Assembly (NCBI RefSeq): GCF_002105155.1
Contig: NW_019029037.1
Span: 124,001-188,000 of the forward strand
Direction: 5' to 3'
Length of the DNA stretch: 64,000 bases
DNA from: Lobosporangium transversale
Taxonomy: Eukaryota; Mortierellomycota; Mortierellomycetes; Mortierellales; Mortierellaceae
Shown here: in pieces, positions 41,010-64,000 of the stretch
Layout: every line of letters starts with the position of its first letter
How positions within the stretch are numbered: the stretch's first letter is position 1
The notes under the pieces: model-generated
Told to the model about the DNA's origin: nothing
The model's database searches: none
What the model saw: the letters and a program-made list of their open reading frames with translations, nothing else
Translations under genes and position numbers: made by a program

Positions 41010-41306
41010 AGGAAAGAAAGAGAGAAGACAGAGTCAAGGAGTTTGCTATCATGACACATCAAAAAATCATCCAACCGCAACAAGCAAACATCTTTTTTGT
41101 ACATTTACAATATCAGTCCATTTTTCTTGATGCTTTAGGAATACAACAGTGTAAATCGCTTTATCAATAAAATTGAATCAATGCAAATCAAATTGCAGTA
41201 CGCTAGTGTCTACTCTTCTATCAGTATTTTATTTTTTATTTATTTATTACATCGTTATTAAACAAAGGAGAACGACATGGTCTTGGAAAAAAGCTCCAGA
41301 GCGTTA
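41010..41306. terminator. 3' region of CDC48, convergent with a Kazal-like gene
   Basis: Contains an AATAAA hexamer at about 41166-41171, a likely polyadenylation signal 160 bp after the CDC48 stop. No gene seen. Confidence 0.5.
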
Positions 41307-41558
41307 TCAAGGTTCGAAGCAGACTCCCTTGTAAACGAACACGTAGGAGTTCGGGTGCATGCAGTTATACTTGTTCAGCTCACAAGGGTTTCCAAATGTT
41401 CGCATGACTCCAGTTAACGTAGATTTTGCACAGACAGGATCATATATCGTTATACAAGAATGAGGGCACTTGGTTGGTGCAGTTTGCACAGAGGAGGGCA
41501 TAATCAATGCCACAAGAGCGACAAGAAGAGCAACAGTGCTTGAGGGAAAAGGTTGCAT
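41307..41558 (-). CDS. Secreted Kazal-like protease-inhibitor domain protein 1
   Basis: Small single-exon gene for 83 residues. A clear signal peptide (hydrophobic core VALLVALVALIMPSS, cleavage probably after the following AQT/QTA region) precedes one six-cysteine domain. The order C-X3-C, then IYDPVC, then TFGNPCELNKYNC and a final Cys fits the Kazal fold (YDPVC and the N-x-C-x-L-x4-C block are characteristic). Kazal proteins bind and block serine proteases outside the cell; in fungi and oomycetes they may act against host or competitor proteases. The reactive-site specificity is not predictable here. A TATAAAAG box lies 83 bp upstream. Two paralogs follow on the same strand at 46.1 and 48.6 kb. 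Confidence 0.82.
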   Translation of the reverse strand: MQPFPSSTVALLVALVALIMPSSVQTAPTKCPHSCITIYDPVCAKSTLTGVMRTFGNPCELNKYNCMHPNSYVFVYKGVCFEP

Positions 41559-42333
41559 TTTGACAGAGCGAGAGGATTTTAAAGACGAGGTGATTGCTTG
41601 ATGACGAACAGGTTTTGATGAAGAAATGAAAGGCTTTTATACAAAAAAGAAAGGACCCATCGAGTTTCAGCCATATCTTTGTCGTTCTTGAAATAACTGC
41701 CTTTCACAGCCGCAAGAACAGACGACAGTGCAAGATTTGGTGTCTAGAATGACGGGTGACCAAAAAACAAAAACAAAAACAAAAAAAAAAAAGTAACGAA
41801 GCATCTTGAAACCGATGCACGTCGGCGAATGCGTGTCAAAAATAGGTTGAACACTGTTGGTCCAGAAAGTCTGTCTCCGTATTCACGGCGTTTCTTTTTT
41901 TTTTTTTTTTTTTTTTTGAAAATGTTGGCGCCTCAGGGATCACACACATTGCAGCCATAACTATTTTTACAGATGTTTCTTTCTATCAGTTTGAATAGAC
42001 ATTAATAAAAAGAAGAGTCGTTCATTTTTGTTATTCCACCGATTCTGTTATGCACAAAATAAAAACACTGAAAAAAAAAACTGCTCTAATTAGACACGGT
42101 GTCCTGTAGGATTGCATAGACATTCCTGTGTTTAGAGGGTTGACTTTTCGCTCGCACATCACTACATCAGCGATGGTGTGGTAACTCAAGGTAAAAGAGA
42201 AATAACAATATAACATATTGATTATTTCAATACTTTTTAATGGTGGTATACCACCAGTCTATCATAATTCTTATATGTCTATCAACTCTAAAAATGGCTT
42301 TGATGTAAATCGACGAAAGCTTGAGTGCAATAC
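41559..42333. other. Promoter of Kazal-like gene 1 and 3' region of the polygalacturonase gene
   Basis: Holds the TATA box at 41634, a T-tract at about 41896-41917 and otherwise featureless AT-rich DNA. No further gene. Confidence 0.5.
41634..41641 (-). promoter_or_regulatory. TATA box of Kazal-like gene 1
   Basis: TATAAAAG on the minus strand, 83 bp before the ATG at 41558. Confidence 0.65.
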
Positions 42334-43224
42334 TTAGCAACCGCTAGGCTTGGGAGAGATTCCACTACGTAACATGGAATCCAAAATGATTAGAATACAT
42401 ATGCATAATTAAGAGAAAGTAAACTCGTCCGATTCAAGAGAGGAACAGCGAAGAAGGTAAAAGTTAAAAGAAAGAAAGAAAGAAAGAAGAGAAGAAGAAA
42501 AAAAAAAAAAAAAGTGACTTACGTGCATTTAGGCGATGCTCCAGTAATGTTAATCTTTTGGAAATTGAACTTGTCGCACTTGGCACAGAGGATGTAGACA
42601 TTGTTTCTTCCTTTCTTGCTCATGGTACCACGGATGTTGTTGAGGTTCACATTGGTGATAGGAGCGGCCCCACCAGGCTTTCCAGTGGGTCCTTCATTGG
42701 TGTAATCCTGTTGGATAATAACACCATACTTGTGAATGTTGGACATTGTAATGTCTGTATAGGTAATATTGTTGACTTTACCGCCCGTCGCGTTGGCATA
42801 GGCCTTGATACGGACAGCGTTGTCAGAGTTCACAATGTTACAGCGAGCGATTGAAACACCATCAACCACTCCACCAGCCTTGATAGAACCCTGTTTTTTT
42901 AATGGCGATGTTTTTTTTGTAAAAGAGGTAGGAGCGTATGAGTAAAAAAAAAAAAAAAAAAAAAAGAAGCTCTGTTTGCATATTCACAGACAGCAATACT
43001 CTCTTAAAGTCTTTCTTTTTCTTTTTTTTTTTACTGCTTATACGTACAATTGAAACACCATGACCACCATCGCAAAGATTGTCGTTGAAGACGATGTTGG
43101 AGCCGCTGTTGACAGCAAGGCAATCGTCGTTATTGTACACTTTGGCACCTACAATTGTGATACCTTTGGAGTCACCAGAGATATCAAAGCCATCTGTATT
43201 GTGGCCAAGACTATAGCTGGGTCC

Positions 43225-43255
<31 letters not shown>

Positions 43256-43611
43256 CGTGAATTCAAAAGAAATAAAAAAAAAAAAAAAAAGGAAATAAAA
43301 GCATCGTAAGAAAAAAAAAAAAGATTGAGTCATATCCAGAAACCACCATATTGAAAGTGCGTAAGGATTAACAGATCCCTCCTGAAAATATATGTAACGA
43401 TACAAGGCATTTGAGCAACTTACGGTTATCAATGGTAATGTCCTTAAGAATAAGTCCATTACAGTTATTGACAGAGAAGGTGTGGACAGGCGATCTAAGG
43501 ATAGTCAGTCCAGTAATTGAACCACTCATTTTGCGGAGTCTGACAAACTTGGGCTTATTGACACCACCATTGCCTCCTTTGCCATCCCAATATGCCTTTG
43601 TCAGGAGTAGT

Positions 43612-43645
<34 letters not shown>

Positions 43646-44281
43646 TTAACGGTTAAGACGATGTTTCATTCGTGCCACTCAATAAACTAAAATGAAGTAG
43701 CAAAAAAAGAAAAAAAAAAAAAAAAAAGACACTTACTGGACCGTTGCCATCGAAAACTCCCTTGGTGCCATCAATGTTAATGTTCGAACCACCAATGGTG
43801 ACGAGGTCGTGGTCCTTTCCAAGATTCCCTTTGGCGAACGTGATAGTGCCAGCTAATGAAGATCAGAGTGGTTGTTGTAAGCTTCGACGTTGACCTCTGT
43901 TGAGAGCAGGAACAATTATGAGACTGAGGAAAACAAAGAAAAAAAAAAAGTGTGGGATAAAGAAAAACATACTAATCTTGATTGTGGTGCCGGTCTTGAG
44001 TCCAGTGAGATCAATCTTTTTGTTAGCAGGCACGGTAAATGGGCCTTGGATGACAATCGCACTACAACCTTTGGTCCCTGCGATTTGCTCGTAAGATGTA
44101 GCGGTGCATCCGGCACGTGTCTAAAGGGTGCAAAAGAATAGTATGAGACAGTTCGAAGGTTAAGTTGGTAAGGAAGGTCTCACAGCCATGTTCTTCTCGT
44201 TCACTTAGCGACCCTCACCTGGACAGGCCCAGCAATGACGGTAGTGGCCAAAATGGCGGGAACGATAAGAGAAATTCTCAT
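42334..44281 (-). CDS. Secreted endo-polygalacturonase, glycoside hydrolase family 28
   Basis: Extracellular pectinase hydrolysing alpha-1,4-galacturonan. Seven exons: 44281-44219, 44120-43973, 43852-43737, 43595-43424, 43226-43048, 42890-42523 and 42364-42334 (31 nt). They join in phase to give 358 residues, normal for fungal GH28 enzymes. Residues 1-17 are a signal peptide ([18 protein letters not shown]). GH28 hallmarks are all present: [17 protein letters not shown] (the catalytic aspartates), GGHGVSI (the active-site histidine) and AVRIKAY (the RIK substrate-binding motif). Several cysteines fit the usual disulfides, ending in SGC. The two introns before the 43595 and 43226 exons end in AAG, one after a continuous A-tract. 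A TATA box lies at 44381. Its neighbours are Kazal-like inhibitor genes, so the locus is a secretome patch. Confidence 0.93.
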
Positions 44282-44380
44282 GATGGAGAGTAGGAAGCAA
44301 TTCTGAGTAAGGGTTGAGGATTTGGAGTGCTTGTTGTTTTGGATGGGTGTTTTGTTTCCTACAACGGCAGACATATCGCC

Positions 44381-44389
44381 CTTTTTATA
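44381..44389 (-). promoter_or_regulatory. TATA box of the polygalacturonase gene
   Basis: TATAAAAAG on the minus strand, 108 bp before the ATG at 44281. Confidence 0.6.
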
Positions 44390-45299
44390 CTGTCGAGAGT
44401 CCTTTGTCGAGGATGATGGCATGTGCATGCCTATAGTCTTCTGTTTGTGGAGTAGCGATGCTATTCAGCTCTAGAAGACAGCAATCCTCAATTGGATATA
44501 ATATGGATCCAAGAAGCTGCCATTACACAAATTAACATTTCAATGAAATTATTACCTTGTGCAACCGCCAGAGCCATGGACGTTGTACTAGAAGAAAAGT
44601 ACCAAAGACAGGGCATATGTTATGAAAAGGATCCCCACGGTCAATTGTGGAGCAGTTTATTTAAGGGAAGGTACTGACATGCAGCTAGAGTTTAGGGTCC
44701 AGGTTCTCAAACATAGTGGCGGGTAATAGCATGGGAAATTAGGAAATTAACATGGTCAATGTGTCACAGTCATTTGTTTGTATCTCATGGAATTTATTTT
44801 AAATTGCCTGAACCTTGTCATATTAAATGCAGGAAGGTGTACACCCGTGGGATACATCCACATTGAATAAAAAAAAAAGCTCTTCTTGATCGAAGTTTGG
44901 CAGCCTATAGTTTATAAGACCGATCCAAGAGAGGAATGGTATCTGGCTGTTATGGTCAATTAACAACACGAGTCGCGTAATGTTGCTTTGTCTGCAAGTG
45001 TGAATGTGAATGTGAATGTGAGCACAGGCATAAATGGGATATTTGAAGCCAATTGGGATGACCGTGGCTTGTGCTTATTATCTGCAAATAAAATATGGAT
45101 GGTCTTGGCTTGTTAAATCGTTTTTAATTAGCACTCATAGACACCCAGGATTAAGCAACACGAGAGCCCAAACTGAAGGCCGAATGCGCATTCAAGAGAG
45201 ACCTTCTGACTGAGTTACAGTACAATGGGGGCACACACTACCAGGTCGACAACAGATTTAACAAGTAAAGTTAACCGGAAATCTTTTTCACAGTGGCAA

Positions 45300-45690
45300 C
45301 AAAAAATAAAATGGTAAGAATAAATTTCATATAAGACCAGACATATCTCCAGATGATTGAAGTGGATCAAGTGATCTGTCTCATGTAGAGTGGTCCAGGC
45401 GCAGTAGCGCTGAATGTTGGAAAAGAGAACATAGATTTCCGTAGGAGATGGGCCGGTAACTAATAGGATAGGCAATTGAGATGCTGACGCGACAGGTATA
45501 TTTCCTGACTGGCGCTGACATGCAGCGGCCTCATCAGAGATTATGGTGACCACAGCGCCAAGTTCCTAATTTAATTGGTAATTGCTTTTAGCCCTTGAAG
45601 TGGCTGATACAACGAGGAAGCTCACATCCTCAGTATTCGAGCGAAGTAAACTGCTGACAGCCCATTGGTCCTTAATGAATACCGACCCTC
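45300..45690 (-). pseudogene. Possible gene remnant of unknown family
   Basis: On the minus strand an open stretch ending in RSNTED meets GTGAGC, and after an intron of about 60 nt ending AATTAG the frame continues with ELGAVVTIISDEAAACQ, then ASQLPILLVTGPSPTEIY. The two parts read like ordinary folded protein, unlike the surrounding AT-rich noise. Upstream the same frame hits a stop and no start is found; downstream it runs into low-quality sequence. It was not recognised and may be a degraded gene or a chance open frame. Confidence 0.3.
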
Positions 45691-46058
45691 CGAAGGGACA
45701 ATGCCAATCCAAGATGGAGTAACCCCAAAGCTTCCAGCTTCATACGATACTTGGGTGCATTGACATGAATCATGCATAAAACCTTAGCAGCTAGCGCGGA
45801 AAGCTATTCAAAGAGAGAATGCAATAGTAGCATATATTTCTATAAGACTCATGAGACAAATACTCAAAGGATGCAAGGTCCTAACTAGACTAATCTCAAT
45901 TATCCATTTTTCATATTTCTCATGTTTTGGAAGCTCTCGCAGAAGCGAATGGAATAAAAAACAACTGCTTAGCTTTTATTTTTATTAATTCAGTGATAAA
46001 ATCAAGCTAACTAGCGCTTGCGCTTGTAAAGCAGATGCCTTTGTAATCATTGCCCTTA

Positions 46059-46337
46059 TTAACAGGCTCCATCACGGATGAACTGATAGGGATCGTATGG
46101 GTACTTGCAGTTATGTAAATCCAAATAGCACGAGTTTTCAAATGTTTTTTGCCTGCCGCTCATGCCGGCTGCACAGACAGGATCATAGAGTGTAGGGCAG
46201 CCAACAGGACATTCAACTGCTGCCTCGGGTTGCTCAGAAGGAGGAAGTGGGCTTGCAACGACAGACTCGATCATGGTCATGATTATAGCCACAGTAGAGG
46301 CTAGGAATACAGTAGCAGTTGGGAGGGAGAAGTGCAT
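46059..46337 (-). CDS. Secreted Kazal-like protease-inhibitor domain protein 2
   Basis: Single-exon gene for 92 residues, starting MHFSLPTATVFLASTVA at 46337. The signal peptide runs to about residue 29 (ESVVASPLPP), then an acidic linker, then the six-cysteine Kazal-like domain: CPVGC, TLYDPVCAAG, TFENSCYLDLHNC and a last Cys as the C-terminal residue. Spacing of cysteines follows its neighbour at 41.3 kb. The frame stays open upstream, but the ATG at 46337 starts the signal peptide and lies 102 bp from a TATA box. Role inferred as extracellular serine-protease inhibition; specificity unknown. Confidence 0.82.
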   Translation of the reverse strand: MHFSLPTATVFLASTVAIIMTMIESVVASPLPPSEQPEAAVECPVGCPTLYDPVCAAGMSGRQKTFENSCYLDLHNCKYPYDPYQFIRDGAC

Positions 46338-48596
46338 TTTTGTTGCGTTTTTCGTAAAGGTCGGAGGAGTAGAGTAATGGGTTCTAAAATGCAATAGGTA
46401 AAAAGAAGGTATTGACCCATCAGAGTTAATCTTTTTATACTTGAAAGAAAGCCTCTCGACCAATTGATGATTACTCATCTTGTCCGAAGCAAAACACTCT
46501 AGGGACAGAATCAAAACACCTGCGAGGGCCACGCTACTAAGGCAACAATGCCGTTGACGCCGTCATTGCTAATAGATGCTTGCAGCTAAGCCGGCTTGAG
46601 CCTTGATAATTGTCAATGTCAATGTCCTATAAGCACATCACCTTGCTCTTTTTTTTTTTAAATACAAACATTGTCATGGAGAATGATTGGTTAGGAGATT
46701 TTTTTGTTGACACCCTACAAACATCCTTGCTACTCTAGAAACAATAAACGCGCCGCTTTTTATGATAGCTGTTTCTCTTTGCTCTATATGAGTAGTCGAA
46801 ATATGATTGTGTGCCATCAACATGTATATACAAAGAAATGATTACCCTAGCCCCATGGTTTGGTGAAAGTAGACGAGTGATCGGTTGATGTGCTCCTGTC
46901 AAAAAGTCTAAACCAAGCACTGTAGTTGTAGTAAAATGAAGGGAGAGTGAGTAAAGCTTTGCCTCAACTTCATACTAGGATTGAACTCATCTCTTCTTTT
47001 TTTCTCACGTTTATGCTCAATATCAGTGAGAGAGTTCCTATTCTAATTCTATGCTAGTTGCAGTGATATATTATGATTTTTATGATATTATACTTAGTAT
47101 TACCGCAGATAAAAGCTATTGGGATGTAGCTGCACAAAACAATAAAAAAAGACAAAGGAGCGGTCGGAGCGGTCGGAGCGGAGCACATTATTGGCTACGT
47201 GATCTAAGTAAAATATGCACTCTCCAAAAAAATAAAATAAAATAAAACCCTGCTGTAACTCTTCACTGCAGCACCGTTTTAGTTGCTAAGCTAGCTTCAG
47301 AAGACGCATATAGCATATCATGTAAATTGTTATGTCTTCTGTCAACCCCTGCTTTACTAACTTCCACCTCACAGAAAAGTTTACTTTATCTCGGCTGCTT
47401 TGGAAGTCGCTACTTTGGTGTCCGCTCAGTATCAGATAGAAAAACAGATTAAGAGAAGATAAAATAAATTTACATTGGTATTCATCTTTAGACTCATGAG
47501 TTTAATAAAGTAACAGTATGATAGAAATAAATAAACAATGGCCTGTTATTCGTTCTTGTTAATTGCGTTGTCTGGAGAATGCAGCTTATCTCAAGAAATC
47601 ATTGGCTCAACTTATTTTGGATTCTCTTGAAAGCCTCTATAGACGCTTTCAGGCATTCAGCGACTCGTTCTAGTCAAGCAACAGCGCTAGACAGGGCGAA
47701 AGAGATATCAATTATTACAGAGGATGGGACAGCACCCAGAAGGATAACAATTCGAGATACTGATGCAGCTGGGGCCCATACTAGGCTAGTCCTGACATGA
47801 AGGAGCTTCGGTTCAGGTTATAGCGACAGGTTAAAATAATATGCCCAGTTTTAAAATAGACGAGGGTAGTATGTCTAGGACCAATATCATATTTTCCTAC
47901 AGCTGAACCCCATGGGTGCAGTTATTGGCCATTCTTGGTCTCTCTCAACAACACAATCTTGGATCTTTTCAGTATAGAACACGAACGACAGGAGCTGTGC
48001 AACGAGTGCACCAGCAAGATCTCAATAAAAGGAATACTTGCGCGATGGAGGCTTATTTTTTTGTTTGTTTTAATTGATGTTAGCATTTCACGTAAAACGA
48101 CCAAAATAGGCATTCGTATATGATGTTAATTTTCGTATATCCCCGCGCAACCAAATGTAGCCGAATTTGAACTAACAATAATATAAACGCTCTCGCGAGG
48201 CATAAACATGATTATTCATTGGTGTATCTGCAGAACTGGCCTTCTATTGCTTAATTTTCTAGGGCTAATGATAGCACTCGAGAAGTTTGTACACTTGAAA
48301 GAAGAGAGGACGAATGTGTGGCAATATATTTTTTGAGCAGGAAAGGCGTATTCACCCTTTTGCACTTCGCTCAGATGAAGCTTATGCTTTGTATCTTTTG
48401 TAAAAGAGAGCAAGATAAATATGCCGCCTTGGTAAAGATTAGAAAAGTACTAAATTAAGGAAATGGATATAGTTCTTGTTCCTTTATTGTGCTAAGGCAA
48501 TGTGCAAGCTCTGCTGGCATTGCAAATCTTATTTGTAAAATCACGTCCATATTTGTTGATTACACCAAACGATGTTTTCTGATTAAGCATTCCTGC
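46338..48596. other. 2.3-kb gap between Kazal-like genes 2 and 3
   Basis: No supported gene. A GGAGCGGTC-type triplicated 9-mer occurs near 47158-47180. Short open frames at 47.6 and 48.0 kb lack start context and domains. Composition is AT-rich throughout. Confidence 0.45.
46431..46439 (-). promoter_or_regulatory. TATA box of Kazal-like gene 2
   Basis: TATAAAAAG on the minus strand, 102 bp before the chosen ATG at 46337. Confidence 0.6.
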
Positions 48597-48941
48597 TTAG
48601 CATGGTCTATTGGCGACAACATTATACCTGTTACTAGGGTTCTTGCAATTGAAAATGGTCAATTCACATCTGTTGCCAAATGTCCGGCGACGACCGCTTC
48701 TCTGCTGACCACACACAGGCTGGTAGATTCGAGTACATGCCTCTGGGCAAATTCGACGCTTGACTATACCCTCGTGTTGGTGGCGCCACTGCTCTGCCTG
48801 GCGCTGGGAGTCGAGGGCATTGATTGGTGTAGGACTTGCCTTAACAGCCATTTTCATGGTCATGATCGTGATTATGAAAATGACAATGAGCATGGTGGTG
48901 AGCGGTATGTGCGGGACAAAGGCACTTTTCATTAAAGGCAT
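48597..48941 (-). CDS. Secreted Kazal-like protease-inhibitor domain protein 3
   Basis: Single-exon gene for up to 114 residues. A strongly hydrophobic N-terminal segment (MLIVIFIITIMTMKMAVKAS) is the signal region; translation may begin at residue 1, 4 or 17, and the TATA-to-ATG spacing favours the first two. A KR pair (about residues 60-61) just before the cysteine domain could be a Kex2-type processing site, leaving a short pro-region. The domain has CPEAC, IYQPVCGQQ, TFGNRCELTIFNC and a terminal Cys, as in the two paralogs. The residue pair after the third cysteine differs among the three, so their inhibitory targets may differ. Confidence 0.8.
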   Translation of the reverse strand: MPLMKSAFVPHIPLTTMLIVIFIITIMTMKMAVKASPTPINALDSQRQAEQWRHQHEGIVKRRICPEACTRIYQPVCGQQRSGRRRTFGNRCELTIFNCKNPSNRYNVVANRPC

Positions 48942-49735
48942 GTTGATGAAGAAACAGATGTGGGGAGAGGGTCAATACAAAAAATTTTGGTTCAGGTTCT
49001 GCAGGTCAGGACAAGTTATATAAATATCTCTTCCTAAAACCTTGCCCGGTCTTGGACACTCGAAAGTATTCACCGGAATTGGCTTAGTTGATATACGAGG
49101 GAAAAATTAATACTTGCTCTCTTCTCGTATAAGACATTCTATCTTTCGCTGATGATGCAAACTATGCTTTCAACGTTCAGATGATGTACGTTCTGAGGCG
49201 AAATTTCAATGGATGTGGCGGCTTTTTGAGAATAAGTGCCATGGCAACGAAGGTCGTTCTGTCCGAAACTCATATATATCTTGTGATATAAACGATCATT
49301 CTTTGCGATCAGAAAAGCGATATATCTGTTTCTAGCCATAATCACGCTACAAACGCTACAGTCCACTGAGCCAATGAGTTGGGGGCCGGAGCAAAACCAG
49401 AGGTTGGCGCAACCGATTGACTGATCAGGCTGCAAGTCCGTAAATCAGCTATTGTCCAGTTCTTCTCAACACAATATAATGCCACGGTAAGCCTACACCA
49501 TTTTACATCCCAGTGCCGCACAATGAGAAAAAGAACTATGATAGTATGATAGTGTTGGTTTAGAGTTAGACACAGTCGTTTTTATGATCTGCAAGCATGT
49601 TGACATTGCTAATATATGGGAAAAGACAAGACTTTGAGCCACCGCGAAATACACAAACTTATTGATGATTTCTACCTAGCTAATGGCCATAGCATTTTTT
49701 CTTTTTTCCTCTCCAGCAAAAGCTGATATCTGGAG
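48942..49735. other. Gap between Kazal-like gene 3 and the terminal-repeat element
   Basis: No supported gene. A TATATAA at 49016-49022 (-) lies 81 bp before the first ATG of Kazal-like gene 3. Confidence 0.45.
49016..49022 (-). promoter_or_regulatory. TATA box of Kazal-like gene 3
   Basis: TATATAA on the minus strand, 81 bp before the ATG at 48941. Confidence 0.55.
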
Positions 49736-53038: not shown

Positions 53039-53255
53039 TTAGGTGCAGCAGCGCTGACCAAAGCGGCAGGGGTAGGGGTTATCGTAGAAGACGGGGCGAT
53101 AACGGTAAGGGCAAGGATCATTCGGGCTGACTCAGCGGACGCCCTTGTCCTTGCTGGCCTGGGCTCCGCAGGTGATGCGTCCGCGGGTGACGGCCTCAAC
53201 AGAGGATATGGCAGCGATAGGCGACAAGGGTAAGAGCAATGAGTTGACGGATCAT
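53039..53255 (-). pseudogene. Broken copy of the six-cysteine secreted peptide gene
   Basis: The minus-strand sequence is clearly homologous to the intact peptide genes from the ATG (53255, preceded by AAATCAAACATG) to the stop at 53039, but its length of 217 bp is not a multiple of three. The reading frame shifts in the signal peptide, and a TGA replaces one conserved cysteine codon in the middle of the mature domain. The final TGC-TGC cysteine pair is kept. Upstream, the promoter is also recognisable: a CTCGTTTCT element matches the copy at 60.7 kb, and the TATA box is altered to TCTAAAAG. It is a dead family member. Confidence 0.85.
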
Positions 53256-54526: not shown

Positions 54527-54739
54527 TTATATGCAGCAACGTTCCCCCTTAAGGCAAGGCGATGGGTCATCATAATCAATAGCTATGGTACGATATCCAC
54601 GTGGGCAGGGATCTGAGGCGCCGACGCAGAATACACCACGGCTAGGAGATGCTTGATCTTGACAAGAGATGGATGAAACAGAAGTCATGGCAGTCAGGGC
54701 GATGATGATAACAACGGTGATAGTATTGTTACTGAACAT
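54527..54739 (-). CDS. Diverged member of the six-cysteine secreted peptide family
   Basis: Single-exon gene for 70 residues from ATG 54739. The signal peptide is hydrophobic (TVVIIIALTAMTSVSS) and the mature part keeps the family start SISCQDQA, the cysteine order C-X11-C-X6-C-X16-C-X5-CC and the terminal CCI. Only the loops before the second and fourth cysteines are longer than in the palindromic copies. The frame stays open upstream to 54835, but that part resembles the CAAG-rich 5' leader of the other copies. Codon choice is less C-biased than in the other members. Function unknown. Confidence 0.8.
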   Translation of the reverse strand: MFSNNTITVVIIIALTAMTSVSSISCQDQASPSRGVFCVGASDPCPRGYRTIAIDYDDPSPCLKGERCCI

Positions 54740-55209
54740 TTTTACGTCGATGTAAAGTGTGGAAAGGAAAATCGAAAATTTGTAGGCTTCCTCGGCTCTT
54801 TGCTTGAATTGGTTGAAGCACTTGAAGGGTATCAACGGGTTTGAGATAAATAGGTGTTGGGATTAAGGAAAGAAAAATGGCTTGCATCTCCTTGTCTTCT
54901 ATTTATACAGAGGAAAATAAAGCAGATACATGATGGGCATGGGGAAAAACACTGTTCCCATCTTCGCATCCCCCTAGTCGTTCTATTTAGAAGGCCATTG
55001 GCGTAATGCAGTGGCGATAAACAGGAAAAATCGTACTGTCTTTGGATAATGATGAAAACGAAGACGAAGCGTAAGAATAAAATGAAATAAATGTATATCG
55101 ATACTTCGTTGCAGATAAGCACAAGTCTCGCGTAAAAAAAAAAAAAATTATAGTGATATATGTAGTATTTATTCAGGCCTAAGATGCTAAAAGATTCAGC
55201 GGATTCCTG
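54740..55209. other. Gap before the palindrome
   Basis: Upstream region of the 54.5-kb gene, with TATAAATA on the minus strand near 54900, 165 bp from the ATG. The 55150-55209 end is the family 3' flank shared with 52.9 kb. No other gene. Confidence 0.45.
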
Positions 55210-55339
55210 CTCAGACTTGTATATATACTCTATATGCCTTGGATGTACTCAAGTGGACTATAGGCCTCCAGGAGAGACGCTATCAAGCGATAGAAAACGT
55301 CTCATCTTGTCTTGCCTCGTGTCCTGTCTCGAGGACACT

Positions 55340-55537
55340 TTAGATGCAGCAGCGCTGACCAGAGCGGCAGGGGTAGGGGGTATCGTAGAAGACGGGACGG
55401 AAGCCAGAGGGGCAGCTTGTGCCTTTGGCGACGCAGCGGACGCCCTTGCTGCCGGCTTGGTCCTGGCAGGAGATGGCCTCAACAGAGGTCATGGCGACGA
55501 CAGCGACGAGAGCGAGAGCAACGAGTTGGCGGAACAT
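55340..55537 (-). CDS. Six-cysteine small secreted peptide, copy A (left arm)
   Basis: Single-exon gene for a 65-residue precursor. Residues 1-21 are a signal peptide (MFRQLVALALVAVVAMTSVEA); the mature peptide of about 44 residues has cysteines in the order C-X10-C-X6-C-X14-C-X5-CC, so three disulfides are likely. Codons are strongly C-ending (CTC, GTC, GCC, TGC) and GC-rich against AT-rich flanks, which suggests high expression. A TATAAAAG box is 93 bp upstream and the leader ends in ACTCAAGCCAAACATG. It was not recognised as any named family. An antimicrobial peptide, protease-inhibitor-like or host-directed effector are all possible; the cysteine pair at the end recalls other secreted knottin-like peptides. 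Its mirror copy is at 63658. Confidence 0.85.
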   Translation of the reverse strand: MFRQLVALALVAVVAMTSVEAISCQDQAGSKGVRCVAKGTSCPSGFRPVFYDTPYPCRSGQRCCI

Positions 55538-58253
55538 GTTTGGCTTGAGTGGTTTGCTTGAGTGGTTCTTGAAGAGAAACTGAAGAGCGAATGAAGGTCA
55601 ATGGAGGAGGGGAAACGACTCTCTTTTATACTAGAGAAGACAGGACAAACAGCCTCTCACTCAACTCTTGGCTGCAACCACCAATGAAGGATAAGTCTTT
55701 GTTCTTCAACAATTGCCAATGACATACAGATACTTCAATCATATCCGGTTACTAATGCGATCGAAGTCACTGTAGCCAGCAAAAAGAAAAAAAGAAAGCG
55801 GCGTCTTTGCGCCACAGTGCACACAAGCCGTTAGTAGTCATTATAATATAATAGAAATACTATACATCCATCAGATCAAAGAGTCAAAGAAGCACACATG
55901 TTTATTCAGATAGCGGTAAAAGCAGAGTAATGGGCTTGAGGGGAAAGAAAGCCAAGGGTTCAGTCAATGGTATGATGATGACATATTACGCTAGTCTACA
56001 GTGGCAATATTGTCTCGCACTACGATCGTTGCAACGGTCAAGTCATAGAATGGCGTGGGTGCACACAATAAAGTGCGGCGTCTCTGATTTTACTGAGATG
56101 TGCATGTGCGCTACATGCTATCACAGGGAGAGAGGAGAGAGCAACAGAAAGGTCAAGCCAATCATGATGCTATGCAGGACAGGGACAGGTAGAGAGAGAC
56201 AGGGACAAACTATATTGGGCAAGGGAAAAAGTAAAAAAAAATTCAGTGCACGCTGTACCGTACACAGACGGCGCAAACATACAAACATGCATCTAATTTA
56301 TCAAGTACGCCTTTCACATCGAGGGAATAAAATGATAGAGCGCAACCGATTCACTGGCCGGATAGTGTCACACTAAATGGTTAGGTTGCATGAATGAGAA
56401 GATAAATAAAATAAACTATGATTGTGTATGTTTACATCCTGTTAAGCATATTAACGGTCGCAGGCCTAACGCCTCCTGCCCGCGGATCATTTCTCTAGAC
56501 AGACAAGCAAGGGCGAAGGACTAATATATCTTTTATACCTGTATCTTATTCTAATTACTCAACTAACTTATACTATTTATAATACACATACTACAACGAT
56601 AAGTATATATATATATATATTTATCTATATGGTCTTGGCCCATCTGCATGATCGTATCAGATGGAAAAGCAGCATGAGAAGAAAAAACAAAAAAAGAAAT
56701 GGCTCTTGTGTGCAGACGAAGCATAATCCTTTCTAGTGCGCAGAATACATGCACGAACGAAACGCACTATGTAATTCCCAGAAACCTATCGTTGACCAAC
56801 TCGATGCATTATGCATCGATCATTCTTTCCCTCTTCTCCCTCAACCGAGCATTAAAATATCCATTCACTTTCTGGTCTGGCTCCTGGCATTGAACCAATT
56901 AAATCTTTGCTCTCCTTCTCGAGCACTATACAACTATAGCACCACTCTCCATGATCCGGTTAAGTGTCAACTCTAGTGATATTTGTACACATTAGTTTAC
57001 GCCCATAGATGTGAGGTGGATCTGGCGTAGCATTACTCAGTTTATCGATGTCGGAGTATGTTCTCTCGTTTCTAATGTCTCATGTTCTGTTCCAAGGCTG
57101 CCACGCTAAACAGTAGGGACATGCAAAGAGAGAGGGGGAGAAGAGGGAAAAGAAGGAAATAAAGGCTAGTGCAGTGGACGATGTTCACATCTGTCCCCTC
57201 CTATTTCCTGTCCCCTAGGTTCTTGCTCTTGCAGTTAGGCTGGACTAAGCACTGTTCAGCTGAACATTATCTGTTTGCTCCCTAACATACCATAACAACT
57301 GTTGAAAGAAAGAGTGGTCTCCTTTTTTCTAGCATTACGCTGGTGAGAGAAAACAACTAATTGTGTGTACTCAGCGGGTAAAAAGGGAAAAATGGAAAAA
57401 AAGAAAACAGAAATAATACGGAAATAAAAGAATAATGATAAGATCGAGTTAACCGCCATCAATGCCTTGGAGCGCATGAAGAAAAGGTCGCTTGAGCAAC
57501 GAACATCGCAGCAATGTGTTCATATAAAATCGCACGAACCACATTTTAACCTTAAAAAAACCTTAAAGCTTGATTCAAATGTTTTCGCTACAGAGATGAG
57601 CCAGGTAAACATAGAATGAGGAAGGCTCTTTTTTCTTTCCCTTGCTGCCGATACTATGGCGAGCTATTGCATGGCATACTGAAAGTTTATGGGGGTGTAT
57701 GGTACTTAGTATATACTTGTGCGGTGGAGGTAGAGCTGTGGGAGGGTGGAGCAATGGGAGAGTAAGATGGCAATACAAGCTGCTTAATAGCAAGGCGAGA
57801 AAAGAGAGAGAGAGAGAAAGGGAGGTGAGTAGAGGGAGAGAGGGAGAAGGAGAAGGAAAGAGGAAGAAAAAAAGCAAGAGCAGAGGATCGTGAGAAAAGC
57901 AACCAGGTATGAGGGCATAGAGAGGTTCTCATCATACACTGCACACACAGCTGAGTAAAATTCGAACTTCCTACAATGCTCCATCTTCTCACTCACCATT
58001 TCCAAGTCAGATATCCATCCCAATCATCTTCATAACAAGCCATATTGTATAACTACTATATCCGGGCAGGCAAGTAAAAAGGCTGCAGCAGAAGAAAAGC
58101 AGAGTAGTTTTTGTTTATAGTATTTCTTTTATTTCAAATGAGATATCAACTGTCTTGTACTTTCTCAGCCTTGCTTAGGGTATGTGCATATACACTAAGT
58201 GATCTGGCGAGGCCTTGAGTCTTGCTCATTCCAGTAACCAGCACTGGAGCTCT
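55538..58253. other. Interior of the left arm between peptide genes
   Basis: 2.7 kb with no supported gene. Open frames such as 55930-56376 (+) lack a domain, start context or splice sites. There are (AT)n and purine-rich sections (about 57800-57890). The same sequence is mirrored in 60942-63657. Confidence 0.5.
55623..55630 (-). promoter_or_regulatory. TATA box of peptide copy A (left arm)
   Basis: TATAAAAG, 93 bp before the ATG at 55537. Confidence 0.7.
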
Positions 58254-58451
58254 TTAGATGCAGCAGCGCTGGCCAGAGCGGCAGGGGTAGGGGGTATCGT
58301 AGAAGACGGGACGGTAGCCAGAGGGGCAGCTTGTGCCTCTGGCGACGCAGCGGACGCCCCTGCTGCCGGCTTGGTCCTGGCAGGAGATGGCCTCAACAGA
58401 GGTCATGGCGACGACAGCGACGAGAGCGAGAGCAACGAGTTGGCGGAACAT
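58254..58451 (-). CDS. Six-cysteine small secreted peptide, copy B (left arm)
   Basis: Single-exon gene for a 65-residue precursor almost identical to copy A: the two coding sequences differ at four of 198 bases, giving two Lys-to-Arg changes and one Phe-to-Tyr in the mature part, plus one silent change. The signal peptide is identical. Coding similarity ends directly after the stop codon, while part of the leader (ACTCAAGCCAAACATG-like) is kept. TATATAA is 93 bp upstream. The mirror copy is at 60744. Confidence 0.85.
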   Translation of the reverse strand: MFRQLVALALVAVVAMTSVEAISCQDQAGSRGVRCVARGTSCPSGYRPVFYDTPYPCRSGQRCCI

Positions 58452-58537
58452 GTTTGGCTTGAGTGATGTTTGTTTGTAGTTCTTGAAGTGACACTTGAGA
58501 GCGGATGGGGACCAACGAAGATAGAGAAACGAGCTTC

Positions 58538-58544
58538 TTATATA
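58538..58544 (-). promoter_or_regulatory. TATA box of peptide copy B (left arm)
   Basis: TATATAA on the minus strand, 93 bp before the ATG at 58451. Confidence 0.65.
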
Positions 58545-58834
58545 TTTGTCGAAGCGTAGGAGATGACAAGGTATTAAGGTATTAACATAGTATATTCTTG
58601 CCTGACTGGCAGTGTTATCAACTGCGTGTATGAAGCTTGATCGCCACTTACTGTCTTCTAAAAGCAGTGCCCTAAACAGTTAAGTTGACACGAGTCGTCA
58701 CTACTCTATTCTTGATCTTTTTCTGCATGCATACCCGAACTGATACAGGTATCTCACTTGGATATGCTCACATAGCTGATTTGATTTGGTGTCGGCCAGT
58801 GCATTGAGTTACTCAAATATATAATATATGGAGT

Positions 58835-58903
58835 CGTGACTAAAAGACTGGAACTAGTATGAACTACACCCGTGACTAAAAGACTGGAACTAGTATGAAC
58901 TAC
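58835..58903. repeat. 33-bp direct repeat, two copies
   Basis: The unit CGTGACTAAAAGACTGGAAC plus 13 further bases occurs at 58835-58867 and 58871-58903 with a 3-bp gap. It is mirrored in the right arm at 60292-60360. Confidence 0.9.
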
Positions 58904-59211
58904 GATAACCATAGCATTTAACACCAACGGTTGAAATCTAGCTTTGAAACAGACCCGTTTCCCTGATATAGGAGCTAAAATCTACGATTAAGTCAAATAG
59001 GGTGTGATATCTACTTATCCTCTGCTATACAGGGACAGGTGGCGTGTTCTTTTGTCTCTCATACGCACACATGTACAGGCATGGATGATGCGTGTTATAT
59101 ATACATATACATATATGTTTATTAGTATATGTCTATTCTACAAATCTATTGGAGCATACAACCAAGCGATATCTGTACCTGATACAGCCTACTAAACAGG
59201 CAAGCAATCCT

Positions 59212-59983
59212 CATGAGTGAGCTAACGCGCGTGCAGTCGACCCATTGGCCTCTTGATATCACATCCTTACATTGGAATGCATTATAGACCCTTTGTAGAA
59301 ATTAAAGATATTATTTTCTTTGCTTAATACGAAAAAGCTGTATTTGTAGGGCGACTCCTGTAATGCCACTTGTGGGCTTTGCTGAGCGGCCTGAAGGGAT
59401 TCTAGAAAAAGATGATTGTGCCAATCCATACATTAATATAGTGGGTGCAATAATATCATGTCCTATGAGGATAGGAGGTGCCTAAGAAAAAAAAGGGGGT
59501 CATGACTTAGAAGTTGTCTCTATTCACAGTGTTTATGCATTTCTATTTAGGTTTGCCTGCTCCAAAGTCATGACCAGTACTTAAGTGAACGTAGAACAGC
59601 ATAAAGGGTTTTCTGGCTTTGATTAACGGACATTAAGAGAATTTATTTATTAGAGACATGCATTTTTAACGTGTAACTTCATCTTGGAAGCAGGCTATTA
59701 CTGAAAACATTAAGGCTCTAATATTTGTGAATGCTCTGATGGAACTAAGTTGTGATAGTAGGTTTTTTATTGTTGGAAATGAAGGACTAGAACTACGAAC
59801 AGGAATATATATCTCTACTAGATGTAGCCTTTCTACAAGGAACAATCTGGAGCCCAAATTTTACGGAGGAACAAAGTCTCTAGTAAATACTTAATGACAG
59901 CAAATAATACAAGTAATAACGACAATTGTGCCAATAGCTATAATAGTAATAGAATAAATCGTGTCCACTCATGGAACAAAGAA
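59212..59983. other. Spacer at the centre of the palindrome
   Basis: 772 bp of single-copy, AT-rich DNA between the arms. No gene is supported; a 63-codon frame at 59666-59857 (-) has no signal peptide or domain. No obvious transposon ends or telomeric repeats are present. Confidence 0.7.
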
Positions 59984-60291
59984 AGGATTGCTTGCCTGTT
60001 TAGTAGGCTGTATCAGGTACAGATATCGCTTGGTTGTATGCTCCAATAGATTTGTAGAATAGACATATACTAATAAACATATATGTATATGTATATATAA
60101 CACGCATCATCCATGCCTGTACATGTGTGCGTATGAGAGACAAAAGAACACGCCACCTGTCCCTGTATAGCAGAGGATAAGTAGATATCACACCCTATTT
60201 GACTTAATCGTAGATTTTAGCTCCTATATCAGGGAAACGGGTCTGTTTCAAAGCTAGATTTCAACCGTTGGTGTTAAATGCTATGGTTATC

Positions 60292-60360
60292 GTAGTTCAT
60301 ACTAGTTCCAGTCTTTTAGTCACGGGTGTAGTTCATACTAGTTCCAGTCTTTTAGTCACG
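60292..60360. repeat. 33-bp direct repeat, mirrored copies
   Basis: Mirror image of the pair at 58835-58903. Confidence 0.9.
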
Positions 60361-60650
60361 ACTCCATATATTATATATTTGAGTAACTCAATGCACTGGC
60401 CGACACCAAATCAAATCAGCTATGTGAGCATATCCAAGTGAGATACCTGTATCAGTTCGGGTATGCATGCAGAAAAAGATCAAGAATAGAGTAGTGACGA
60501 CTCGTGTCAACTTAACTGTTTAGGGCACTGCTTTTAGAAGACAGTAAGTGGCGATCAAGCTTCATACACGCAGTTGATAACACTGCCAGTCAGGCAAGAA
60601 TATACTATGTTAATACCTTAATACCTTGTCATCTCCTACGCTTCGACAAA

Positions 60651-60657
60651 TATATAA
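60651..60657 (+). promoter_or_regulatory. TATA box of peptide copy B (right arm)
   Basis: TATATAA, 93 bp before the ATG at 60744. Confidence 0.65.
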
Positions 60658-60743
60658 GAAGCTCGTTTCTCTATCTTCGTTGGTCCCCATCCGCTCTCAA
60701 GTGTCACTTCAAGAACTACAAACAAACATCACTCAAGCCAAAC

Positions 60744-60941
60744 ATGTTCCGCCAACTCGTTGCTCTCGCTCTCGTCGCTGTCGTCGCCATGACCTCTGTT
60801 GAGGCCATCTCCTGCCAGGACCAAGCCGGCAGCAGGGGCGTCCGCTGCGTCGCCAGAGGCACAAGCTGCCCCTCTGGCTACCGTCCCGTCTTCTACGATA
60901 CCCCCTACCCCTGCCGCTCTGGCCAGCGCTGCTGCATCTAA
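60744..60941 (+). CDS. Six-cysteine small secreted peptide, copy B (right arm)
   Basis: Identical in sequence to the gene at 58254-58451 but in the opposite orientation, so the two copies point away from each other across the palindrome centre. It has a 21-residue signal peptide, six cysteines and the SGQRCCI C terminus. Promoter and leader are part of the arm and identical too. Confidence 0.85.
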   Translation: MFRQLVALALVAVVAMTSVEAISCQDQAGSRGVRCVARGTSCPSGYRPVFYDTPYPCRSGQRCCI

Positions 60942-63657
60942 AGAGCTCCAGTGCTGGTTACTGGAATGAGCAAGACTCAAGGCCTCGCCAGATCACTTAG
61001 TGTATATGCACATACCCTAAGCAAGGCTGAGAAAGTACAAGACAGTTGATATCTCATTTGAAATAAAAGAAATACTATAAACAAAAACTACTCTGCTTTT
61101 CTTCTGCTGCAGCCTTTTTACTTGCCTGCCCGGATATAGTAGTTATACAATATGGCTTGTTATGAAGATGATTGGGATGGATATCTGACTTGGAAATGGT
61201 GAGTGAGAAGATGGAGCATTGTAGGAAGTTCGAATTTTACTCAGCTGTGTGTGCAGTGTATGATGAGAACCTCTCTATGCCCTCATACCTGGTTGCTTTT
61301 CTCACGATCCTCTGCTCTTGCTTTTTTTCTTCCTCTTTCCTTCTCCTTCTCCCTCTCTCCCTCTACTCACCTCCCTTTCTCTCTCTCTCTCTTTTCTCGC
61401 CTTGCTATTAAGCAGCTTGTATTGCCATCTTACTCTCCCATTGCTCCACCCTCCCACAGCTCTACCTCCACCGCACAAGTATATACTAAGTACCATACAC
61501 CCCCATAAACTTTCAGTATGCCATGCAATAGCTCGCCATAGTATCGGCAGCAAGGGAAAGAAAAAAGAGCCTTCCTCATTCTATGTTTACCTGGCTCATC
61601 TCTGTAGCGAAAACATTTGAATCAAGCTTTAAGGTTTTTTTAAGGTTAAAATGTGGTTCGTGCGATTTTATATGAACACATTGCTGCGATGTTCGTTGCT
61701 CAAGCGACCTTTTCTTCATGCGCTCCAAGGCATTGATGGCGGTTAACTCGATCTTATCATTATTCTTTTATTTCCGTATTATTTCTGTTTTCTTTTTTTC
61801 CATTTTTCCCTTTTTACCCGCTGAGTACACACAATTAGTTGTTTTCTCTCACCAGCGTAATGCTAGAAAAAAGGAGACCACTCTTTCTTTCAACAGTTGT
61901 TATGGTATGTTAGGGAGCAAACAGATAATGTTCAGCTGAACAGTGCTTAGTCCAGCCTAACTGCAAGAGCAAGAACCTAGGGGACAGGAAATAGGAGGGG
62001 ACAGATGTGAACATCGTCCACTGCACTAGCCTTTATTTCCTTCTTTTCCCTCTTCTCCCCCTCTCTCTTTGCATGTCCCTACTGTTTAGCGTGGCAGCCT
62101 TGGAACAGAACATGAGACATTAGAAACGAGAGAACATACTCCGACATCGATAAACTGAGTAATGCTACGCCAGATCCACCTCACATCTATGGGCGTAAAC
62201 TAATGTGTACAAATATCACTAGAGTTGACACTTAACCGGATCATGGAGAGTGGTGCTATAGTTGTATAGTGCTCGAGAAGGAGAGCAAAGATTTAATTGG
62301 TTCAATGCCAGGAGCCAGACCAGAAAGTGAATGGATATTTTAATGCTCGGTTGAGGGAGAAGAGGGAAAGAATGATCGATGCATAATGCATCGAGTTGGT
62401 CAACGATAGGTTTCTGGGAATTACATAGTGCGTTTCGTTCGTGCATGTATTCTGCGCACTAGAAAGGATTATGCTTCGTCTGCACACAAGAGCCATTTCT
62501 TTTTTTGTTTTTTCTTCTCATGCTGCTTTTCCATCTGATACGATCATGCAGATGGGCCAAGACCATATAGATAAATATATATATATATATACTTATCGTT
62601 GTAGTATGTGTATTATAAATAGTATAAGTTAGTTGAGTAATTAGAATAAGATACAGGTATAAAAGATATATTAGTCCTTCGCCCTTGCTTGTCTGTCTAG
62701 AGAAATGATCCGCGGGCAGGAGGCGTTAGGCCTGCGACCGTTAATATGCTTAACAGGATGTAAACATACACAATCATAGTTTATTTTATTTATCTTCTCA
62801 TTCATGCAACCTAACCATTTAGTGTGACACTATCCGGCCAGTGAATCGGTTGCGCTCTATCATTTTATTCCCTCGATGTGAAAGGCGTACTTGATAAATT
62901 AGATGCATGTTTGTATGTTTGCGCCGTCTGTGTACGGTACAGCGTGCACTGAATTTTTTTTTACTTTTTCCCTTGCCCAATATAGTTTGTCCCTGTCTCT
63001 CTCTACCTGTCCCTGTCCTGCATAGCATCATGATTGGCTTGACCTTTCTGTTGCTCTCTCCTCTCTCCCTGTGATAGCATGTAGCGCACATGCACATCTC
63101 AGTAAAATCAGAGACGCCGCACTTTATTGTGTGCACCCACGCCATTCTATGACTTGACCGTTGCAACGATCGTAGTGCGAGACAATATTGCCACTGTAGA
63201 CTAGCGTAATATGTCATCATCATACCATTGACTGAACCCTTGGCTTTCTTTCCCCTCAAGCCCATTACTCTGCTTTTACCGCTATCTGAATAAACATGTG
63301 TGCTTCTTTGACTCTTTGATCTGATGGATGTATAGTATTTCTATTATATTATAATGACTACTAACGGCTTGTGTGCACTGTGGCGCAAAGACGCCGCTTT
63401 CTTTTTTTCTTTTTGCTGGCTACAGTGACTTCGATCGCATTAGTAACCGGATATGATTGAAGTATCTGTATGTCATTGGCAATTGTTGAAGAACAAAGAC
63501 TTATCCTTCATTGGTGGTTGCAGCCAAGAGTTGAGTGAGAGGCTGTTTGTCCTGTCTTCTCTAGTATAAAAGAGAGTCGTTTCCCCTCCTCCATTGACCT
63601 TCATTCGCTCTTCAGTTTCTCTTCAAGAACCACTCAAGCAAACCACTCAAGCCAAAC
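60942..63657. other. Interior of the right arm between peptide genes
   Basis: Mirror of 55538-58253; no supported gene. Confidence 0.5.
63565..63572 (+). promoter_or_regulatory. TATA box of peptide copy A (right arm)
   Basis: TATAAAAG, 93 bp before the ATG at 63658. Confidence 0.7.
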
Positions 63658-63855
63658 ATGTTCCGCCAACTCGTTGCTCTCGCTCTCGTCGCTGTCGTCG
63701 CCATGACCTCTGTTGAGGCCATCTCCTGCCAGGACCAAGCCGGCAGCAAGGGCGTCCGCTGCGTCGCCAAAGGCACAAGCTGCCCCTCTGGCTTCCGTCC
63801 CGTCTTCTACGATACCCCCTACCCCTGCCGCTCTGGTCAGCGCTGCTGCATCTAA
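63658..63855 (+). CDS. Six-cysteine small secreted peptide, copy A (right arm)
   Basis: Identical to the gene at 55340-55537, in the opposite orientation. The 65-residue precursor has a signal peptide and the C-X10-C-X6-C-X14-C-X5-CC pattern. It is the outermost intact family member seen; the arm similarity weakens 130 bp after its stop codon. Confidence 0.85.
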   Translation: MFRQLVALALVAVVAMTSVEAISCQDQAGSKGVRCVAKGTSCPSGFRPVFYDTPYPCRSGQRCCI

Positions 63856-64000
63856 AGTGTCCTCGAGACAGGACACGAGGCAAGACAAGATGAGACGTTT
63901 TCTATCGCTTGATAGCGTCTCTCCTGGAGGCCTATAGTCCACTTGAGTACATCCAAGGCATATAGAGTATATATACAAGTCTGAGTAGGAACTTGCTGAA

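Follow-up and report, generated by a model that had tools for sequence, protein, structure and literature searches.

Nested inverted repeats carrying cysteine-rich peptide and polygalacturonase genes in Lobosporangium transversale are consistent with homologous copying between inverted paralogs

The 64-kb stretch of DNA analysed here (the window) covers positions 124001-188000 of contig NW_019029037.1 (C83) in one genome of Lobosporangium transversale, and C83 coordinates are therefore obtained by adding 124,000 to the window coordinates. The genome searched comprises 42.7 Mb in 127 contigs, which we take to be the assembly of strain NRRL 3116 built from long reads. The right end of the window was occupied by a palindrome carrying genes for small cysteine-rich peptides, and a second, longer-range inverted repeat, with a gene for a polygalacturonase of glycoside hydrolase family 28 (GH28), was found to enclose this palindrome on the same contig (Table 1). 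Rfam and tRNA scans of the 64-kb window gave no matches. A fungal origin, proposed in an initial annotation made from the letters alone, was correct.

Table 1. Features of the nested inverted repeats and their surroundings, in window coordinates unless C83 is given.
Feature	Position	Strand	Remarks
Left arm, outer inverted repeat	42227..45092	+	Partner C83:194784-197656 beyond the window (window numbering 70784-73656)
GH28 polygalacturonase gene	42334..44281	-	7 exons, 358 aa, in outer arm; partner copy C83:195595-197545, identical protein
Old mirrored homology adjoining the identical GH28 tract on its inner side	45112..45489	.	Pairs with C83:194628-194238 (402 columns, 59%, E 5.6e-16)
Kazal-like ORF	46059-46562		Below Pfam cut-off
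Strongly decayed peptide paralog	47675..47839	-	5 stops; weak match, E 5e-4
Kazal-like ORF	48597-48971		Passes Pfam cut-off
Decayed peptide paralog	53045..53227	-	One in-frame TGA; 3' flank related to both arm margins
Diverged peptide paralog outside left arm	54527..54739	-	70 aa
Diverged outer margin of left arm	55154..55209	.	47/56 identical to C83:187986-188041 (starts at window 63986, passes the window end)
Left arm, inner palindrome	55210..59211	+	4002 bp, reverse complement of 59984-63985
Cysteine-rich peptide gene, outer copy, left arm	55340..55537	-	65 aa
Cysteine-rich peptide gene, inner copy, left arm	58254..58451	-	65 aa
Spacer, inner palindrome	59212..59983	.	772 bp, one genome match
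Right arm, inner palindrome	59984..63985	-	
Cysteine-rich peptide gene, inner copy, right arm	60744..60941	+	Same as 58254-58451
Cysteine-rich peptide gene, outer copy, right arm	63658..63855	+	Same as 55340-55537
Diverged outer margin of right arm, first 15 bp	63986..64000	.	Goes on to C83:188041
Kazal-like ORF, third	C83:192968-193294		Recognised by eye

When the arms of the inner palindrome were compared directly, 0 of 4002 positions mismatched and no indel was present, in agreement with the initial annotation, which had described this palindrome and its 772-bp spacer without net indel. Open frames recurring at mirrored coordinates were likewise recovered (for ORFs of at least 50 aa), and the assignment of cysteine-rich peptide genes with a secretion-like start to the arms held. 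A perfect match of 4 kb cannot arise by chance. The exactness of the arms had been seen correctly, but not that the palindrome is one of two nested inverted repeats. Its homology also passes the window end. Repeat detection returned the same arm pair lengthened with mismatches to the window end (55195-59211/59984-64000), and alignment beyond the window (C83:179154-183211 against 188041-183984) extended over 4058 bp with 9 mismatches, all of them in the outer 56 bp. No arm-to-arm homology was found past these 56 bp, where the two flanks are unlike each other. The outer margin gave a local score of 39 compared to at most 23.5 in 100 shuffles; its anchored ungapped extension was equalled by 0 of 2000 random pairs, and in the gapped control it was beaten by 1 of 300 random pairs (score 91). 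The margin flanks the outer peptide gene on its 3' side, and a related flank is present at the decayed paralog approximately 2 kb further left. At the inner edge no continuing homology was detected (score 13.0 compared to a shuffle mean of 13.3) and the break was sharp, with an 8-bp match displaced by 10 bp, as occurs in 0.14% of random edge pairs (0.49% when both offsets float).

In a genome DNA search that skipped simple repeats, the stretch 59984-64000 gave four matches, namely the two arms and two weak paralog matches on the same contig, and the 772-bp spacer gave one match across the genome. Insertion of a mobile element twice, in opposite orientations, could be considered because a dispersed repeat lies close to the right arm, but the same DNA search, with no further genome copy of arm or spacer, largely refutes this explanation, which is very improbable. 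The dispersed repeat itself (C83:188205-188583, approximately 380 bp) begins approximately 160 bp outside the right arm and, at E ≤ 1e-60, matched at least 38 further places, spread over many contigs, with 71-80% identity. At the same cut-off, three of four 4-kb control pieces matched themselves alone; the fourth, which lies to the right of the palindrome, otherwise shared only dispersed repeats of less than 0.5 kb, in each case among the matches listed.

Self-comparison of 141.8 kb of C83 (low complexity masked, matches longer than 200 bp, E ≤ 1e-8) returned the two inverted repeats, the peptide-gene paralogs and one 203-bp direct pair at 73%. A more sensitive scan of C83 155-215 kb added weaker pairs; the longest, in direct orientation, spanned 708 columns at 56% near 163-165 kb. 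At C83:200172-200275 lies a spacerless palindrome of 104 bp that is 79% self-complementary. Weak direct similarity (60%, E 1.7e-8) was present between 41229-41497 and 45969-46244 of the window; the latter overlaps a Kazal-like ORF, which suggests a relic outside the GH28 arm.

A search of the genome with the peptide produced 10 matches, nine on C83 and a distant one on contig C108. The nine comprised the four arm copies, three open and diverged copies (54527-54739, C83:189160 and C83:199742) and two copies with stops, so that two of the five unpaired paralogs on C83 carry stops. The product of 54527-54739 is the same as L. transversale BX616_003881 over the first 66 residues, and the sequence P0001 consists of the outer peptide plus six upstream codons. 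For three peptides tested, the Pfam scan gave nothing over the cut-off, and a PDB sequence search gave no relative at E ≤ 1. A beta-defensin-like fold was considered, but the structural matches are too weak to claim it; among the titles listed in the literature search, none showed a fungal beta-defensin-like family. The distribution of the peptide family was patchy, comprising Mortierellaceae, three Aspergillus species and Ascochyta lentis (59% identity), for which horizontal transfer or loss is possible.

Comparison of the inner with the outer peptide gene of each arm showed differences at 4 of 198 CDS positions, with one change over 48 synonymous sites (Poisson P 5e-5). In contrast, 26 of 99 aligned positions (26%) differed in the DNA upstream of the two genes (Fisher P 3e-10 compared to the CDS). 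Judged from these sequences, the tandem genes in each arm may form a third homogenised pair, to whose likeness codon selection could contribute; codon selection or a fast-changing promoter could also account for the low synonymous divergence.

The outer inverted repeat (C83:166227-169092 against 197656-194784) aligned over 2875 columns with 13 mismatches and 11 gap letters. Twelve of the mismatches and four of the gap letters fell in the outermost 45 columns; the interior, approximately 2.8 kb, was identical except for one substitution near the inner edge and three homopolymer lengths (22/27, 28/27 and 28/27), all in introns 3, 4 and 5 of the GH28 gene. The repeat contains A and T homopolymers 11-28 bases long, many of them intronic. 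The outermost 45 columns reached a local score of 18.0 where the best of 100 shuffles reached 18.5; anchored to the tract end, they were equalled by 4 of 2000 random pairs without gaps and by 1 of 300 with gaps, and on this alignment their status as true homology is doubtful.

The introns of the GH28 gene are GT-AG and both copies encode the same 358-aa protein. PF00295 scored over the cut-off, and the NTD, DD, GHG and RIK motifs, which are those of family 28, were read in the protein. In a whole-genome search with PF00295, all six exon matches were within the two inverted copies, and these were the only GH28 genes found. The partial GH28 protein L. transversale BX616_001842 was 100% identical over 46% of the query, and the closest relative among the matches listed was from Mortierella sp. 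AM989 (82%).

The outer arms lie 25.7 kb apart, and the DNA between outer and inner arms amounts to 10.1 kb on the left and 6.7 kb on the right. Besides the two repeats, no mirrored near-identity was found in this DNA, which indicates that one recent large inverted duplication cannot explain both tracts. A single duplication spanning both repeats was rejected, the inter-arm intervals being unmirrored beyond approximately 400 bp beside the GH28 tract. Within those 400 bp, the mirrored 59% homology adjoining the inner edge of the identical tract points to an old inverted relationship, as gene conversion predicts. It runs into a peptide-gene relic in mirrored orientation, clear on the left, where the score was reached by 0 of 200 shuffles with each of three family members, and weak on the right, where it was reached by 0, 3 and 43 of 200 shuffles; neither relic was among the matches of the genome protein search with the peptide. 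In the diverged part, transitions exceeded transversions (113 compared to 39). Repeat-induced point mutation is characterised by a high TpA/ApT and a low (CpA+TpG)/(ApC+GpT) index. Both indices were ordinary in the two diverged GH28 flanks (0.80 and 0.90, and 1.27 and 1.20, respectively), and repeat-induced point mutation of the old copies was disfavoured despite the transition excess.

Longer, diverged homology around an identical tract is clear at the inner edge of the outer repeat and doubtful at its outer edge; at the inner palindrome it extends over 56 bp at the outer edge and was not found at the inner edge. The initial annotation had left recent duplication, conversion between arms and assembly fold-back side by side; the evidence leans to conversion-type copying and disfavours a simple fold-back, given the unlike flanks beyond 56 bp, the spacer with one match and the diverged margin. 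The reading preferred here, with a probability of roughly 0.58, is that inverted paralogs of a secreted-protein cluster in L. transversale were made identical by homologous recombination, either as gene conversion or as copying anchored by homology. When one copy suffered a break, the inverted partner would serve as repair template, and the copying would overwrite approximately 4.0 kb in the inner palindrome and approximately 2.8 kb in the outer GH28 repeat, while diverged sequence of older homology would survive at some of the tract edges. The peptide genes and the pectinase would thereby be retained in several intact copies; if, rarely, a crossover replaced conversion, the 772-bp spacer or the 25.7-kb interval would be inverted. 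We infer repair copying as the cause, as well as its direction and its possible recurrence.

Recombination of this kind is favoured by 0 of 4002 mismatches in the arms compared to 9 of 56 in the adjoining margin of the inner palindrome, by the near-identical outer tract with 59% mirrored homology beside it, and by the alike tandem coding sequences (1/48 synonymous) with different upstream DNA (26/99). It is also favoured by the precedent of homogenised inverted repeats in yeast (PMC9731477). The patchy, gene-centred identity is more readily reconciled with gene conversion between inverted paralogs than with a plain new duplication or with a fold-back artefact, and the diverged remnants at some tract edges suggest that one copy was recently overwritten by the other rather than that a plain assembly error occurred.

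The same edges bear on a different explanation, in which each repeat arose by one recent copying event, a single inverted duplication whose ends were anchored by short homology to an existing paralog (break-induced replication or template switching), with arms that are identical because they are young and not because they are maintained. The absence of mismatches in 4002 positions, which caps arm divergence at approximately 0.075%, the sharp inner edge of the palindrome and the location of its margin in a 3' flank common to paralogs agree with such an event, and the inner palindrome by itself would be explained about equally well. Against conversion it may also be held that, for the inner palindrome, the evidence outside the tract comprises 56 bp in a flank shared with other paralogs and the inner edge is sharp, and that the GH28 repeat has a doubtful outer margin. 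However, one-off copying needs three coincidences, namely that each of the two nested tracts has at most one substitution and that the tandem CDS pair is unusually alike, and it is rather unlikely as an account of the whole locus. Homologous repair between inverted paralogs accounts for the identical tracts with diverged edges, for the substitution counts of zero and one in the two nested tracts, and for the likeness of the tandem CDS pair.

An assembly artefact, by fold-back, misjoin or one copy being written over its diverged partner during consensus building, is improbable. In other data, P0001 (without starting Met) was on a contig of 8475 bp, the flank peptide P0003 on one of 4568 bp and the GH28 fragment P0059 on one of 7167 bp, as an artefact would allow, but a real repeat would likewise give short contigs in a short-read assembly. 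The mirroring past the arms that marks a fold-back was absent, the flanks being unlike beyond 56 bp; moreover, diverged mirrored homology lies beside the tracts, and, among the matches listed, the control pieces of the same assembly showed no comparable duplication. An artefact would need the unlike flanks, the single-copy spacer and the diverged margins all to have come about by chance. The outer copies differ in homopolymer length, which indicates that they were called separately and argues against an artefact. Consensus smoothing could nevertheless hide a few real differences between the arms.

The closest known arrangement is the flip/flop region of Saccharomyces chromosome XIV, where near-identical 4.2-kb inverted repeats with gene pairs lie 24 kb apart; its authors attribute their likeness to gene conversion that goes on continually, of which inversion is a by-product, and call what keeps the repeats alike an open question (PMC9731477). 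In both loci, unlike DNA is flanked by a near-identical pair of inverted copies that carry genes; in L. transversale the outer arms measure 2.8 kb and lie 25.7 kb apart. In contrast to the yeast case as described there, a further inverted repeat, with arms of 4.0 kb and a spacer of 772 bp, is nested inside, and the genes are those for cysteine-rich peptides and a GH28 pectinase. The likeness is one of anatomy, as the yeast case is defined by strain trees and orientation polymorphism and the present one by one genome. Gene-bearing palindrome arms held alike by gene conversion are also described for the human Y (more than 99.9%; PMC3723533) and the willow W (PMC7023750). The inner palindrome resembles them in arms more than 99.9% identical around a unique spacer, but its arms are 4 kb, it has no known sex-chromosome context, and conversion is deduced from tract edges, whereas populations or species were not the basis of comparison. 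For a palindrome older than its arm identity, the features observed are the 56-bp diverged margin and the weak match at the inner edge. In yeast, template switching between inverted repeats of short length homogenises arms and inverts spacers (PMC8604942); it concerns short repeats and changes of few bases, unlike the kilobase tracts found here. Among the titles listed in the literature search, none described a gene-conversion palindrome or inverted repeat that carries genes for secreted peptides in a fungus, PMC9731477 being the nearest.

Homogenised inverted repeats are already documented in yeast and on sex chromosomes, and the kind itself is known; what is new is that a palindrome with a short spacer lies within a long-range inverted repeat and that the gene families differ. 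With five unpaired members of the peptide family next to the nested pair, two of them carrying stops, the locus provides an internal control for whether pairing protects genes from divergence and decay. A tentative and rather doubtful extension is that the nested palindromes act as a gene-maintenance device in this early-diverging fungus, in which continual conversion would keep the peptide genes and the sole pectinase found identical and intact while unpaired paralogs diverge or break, and crossovers would flip the 772-bp and 25.7-kb segments in the population.
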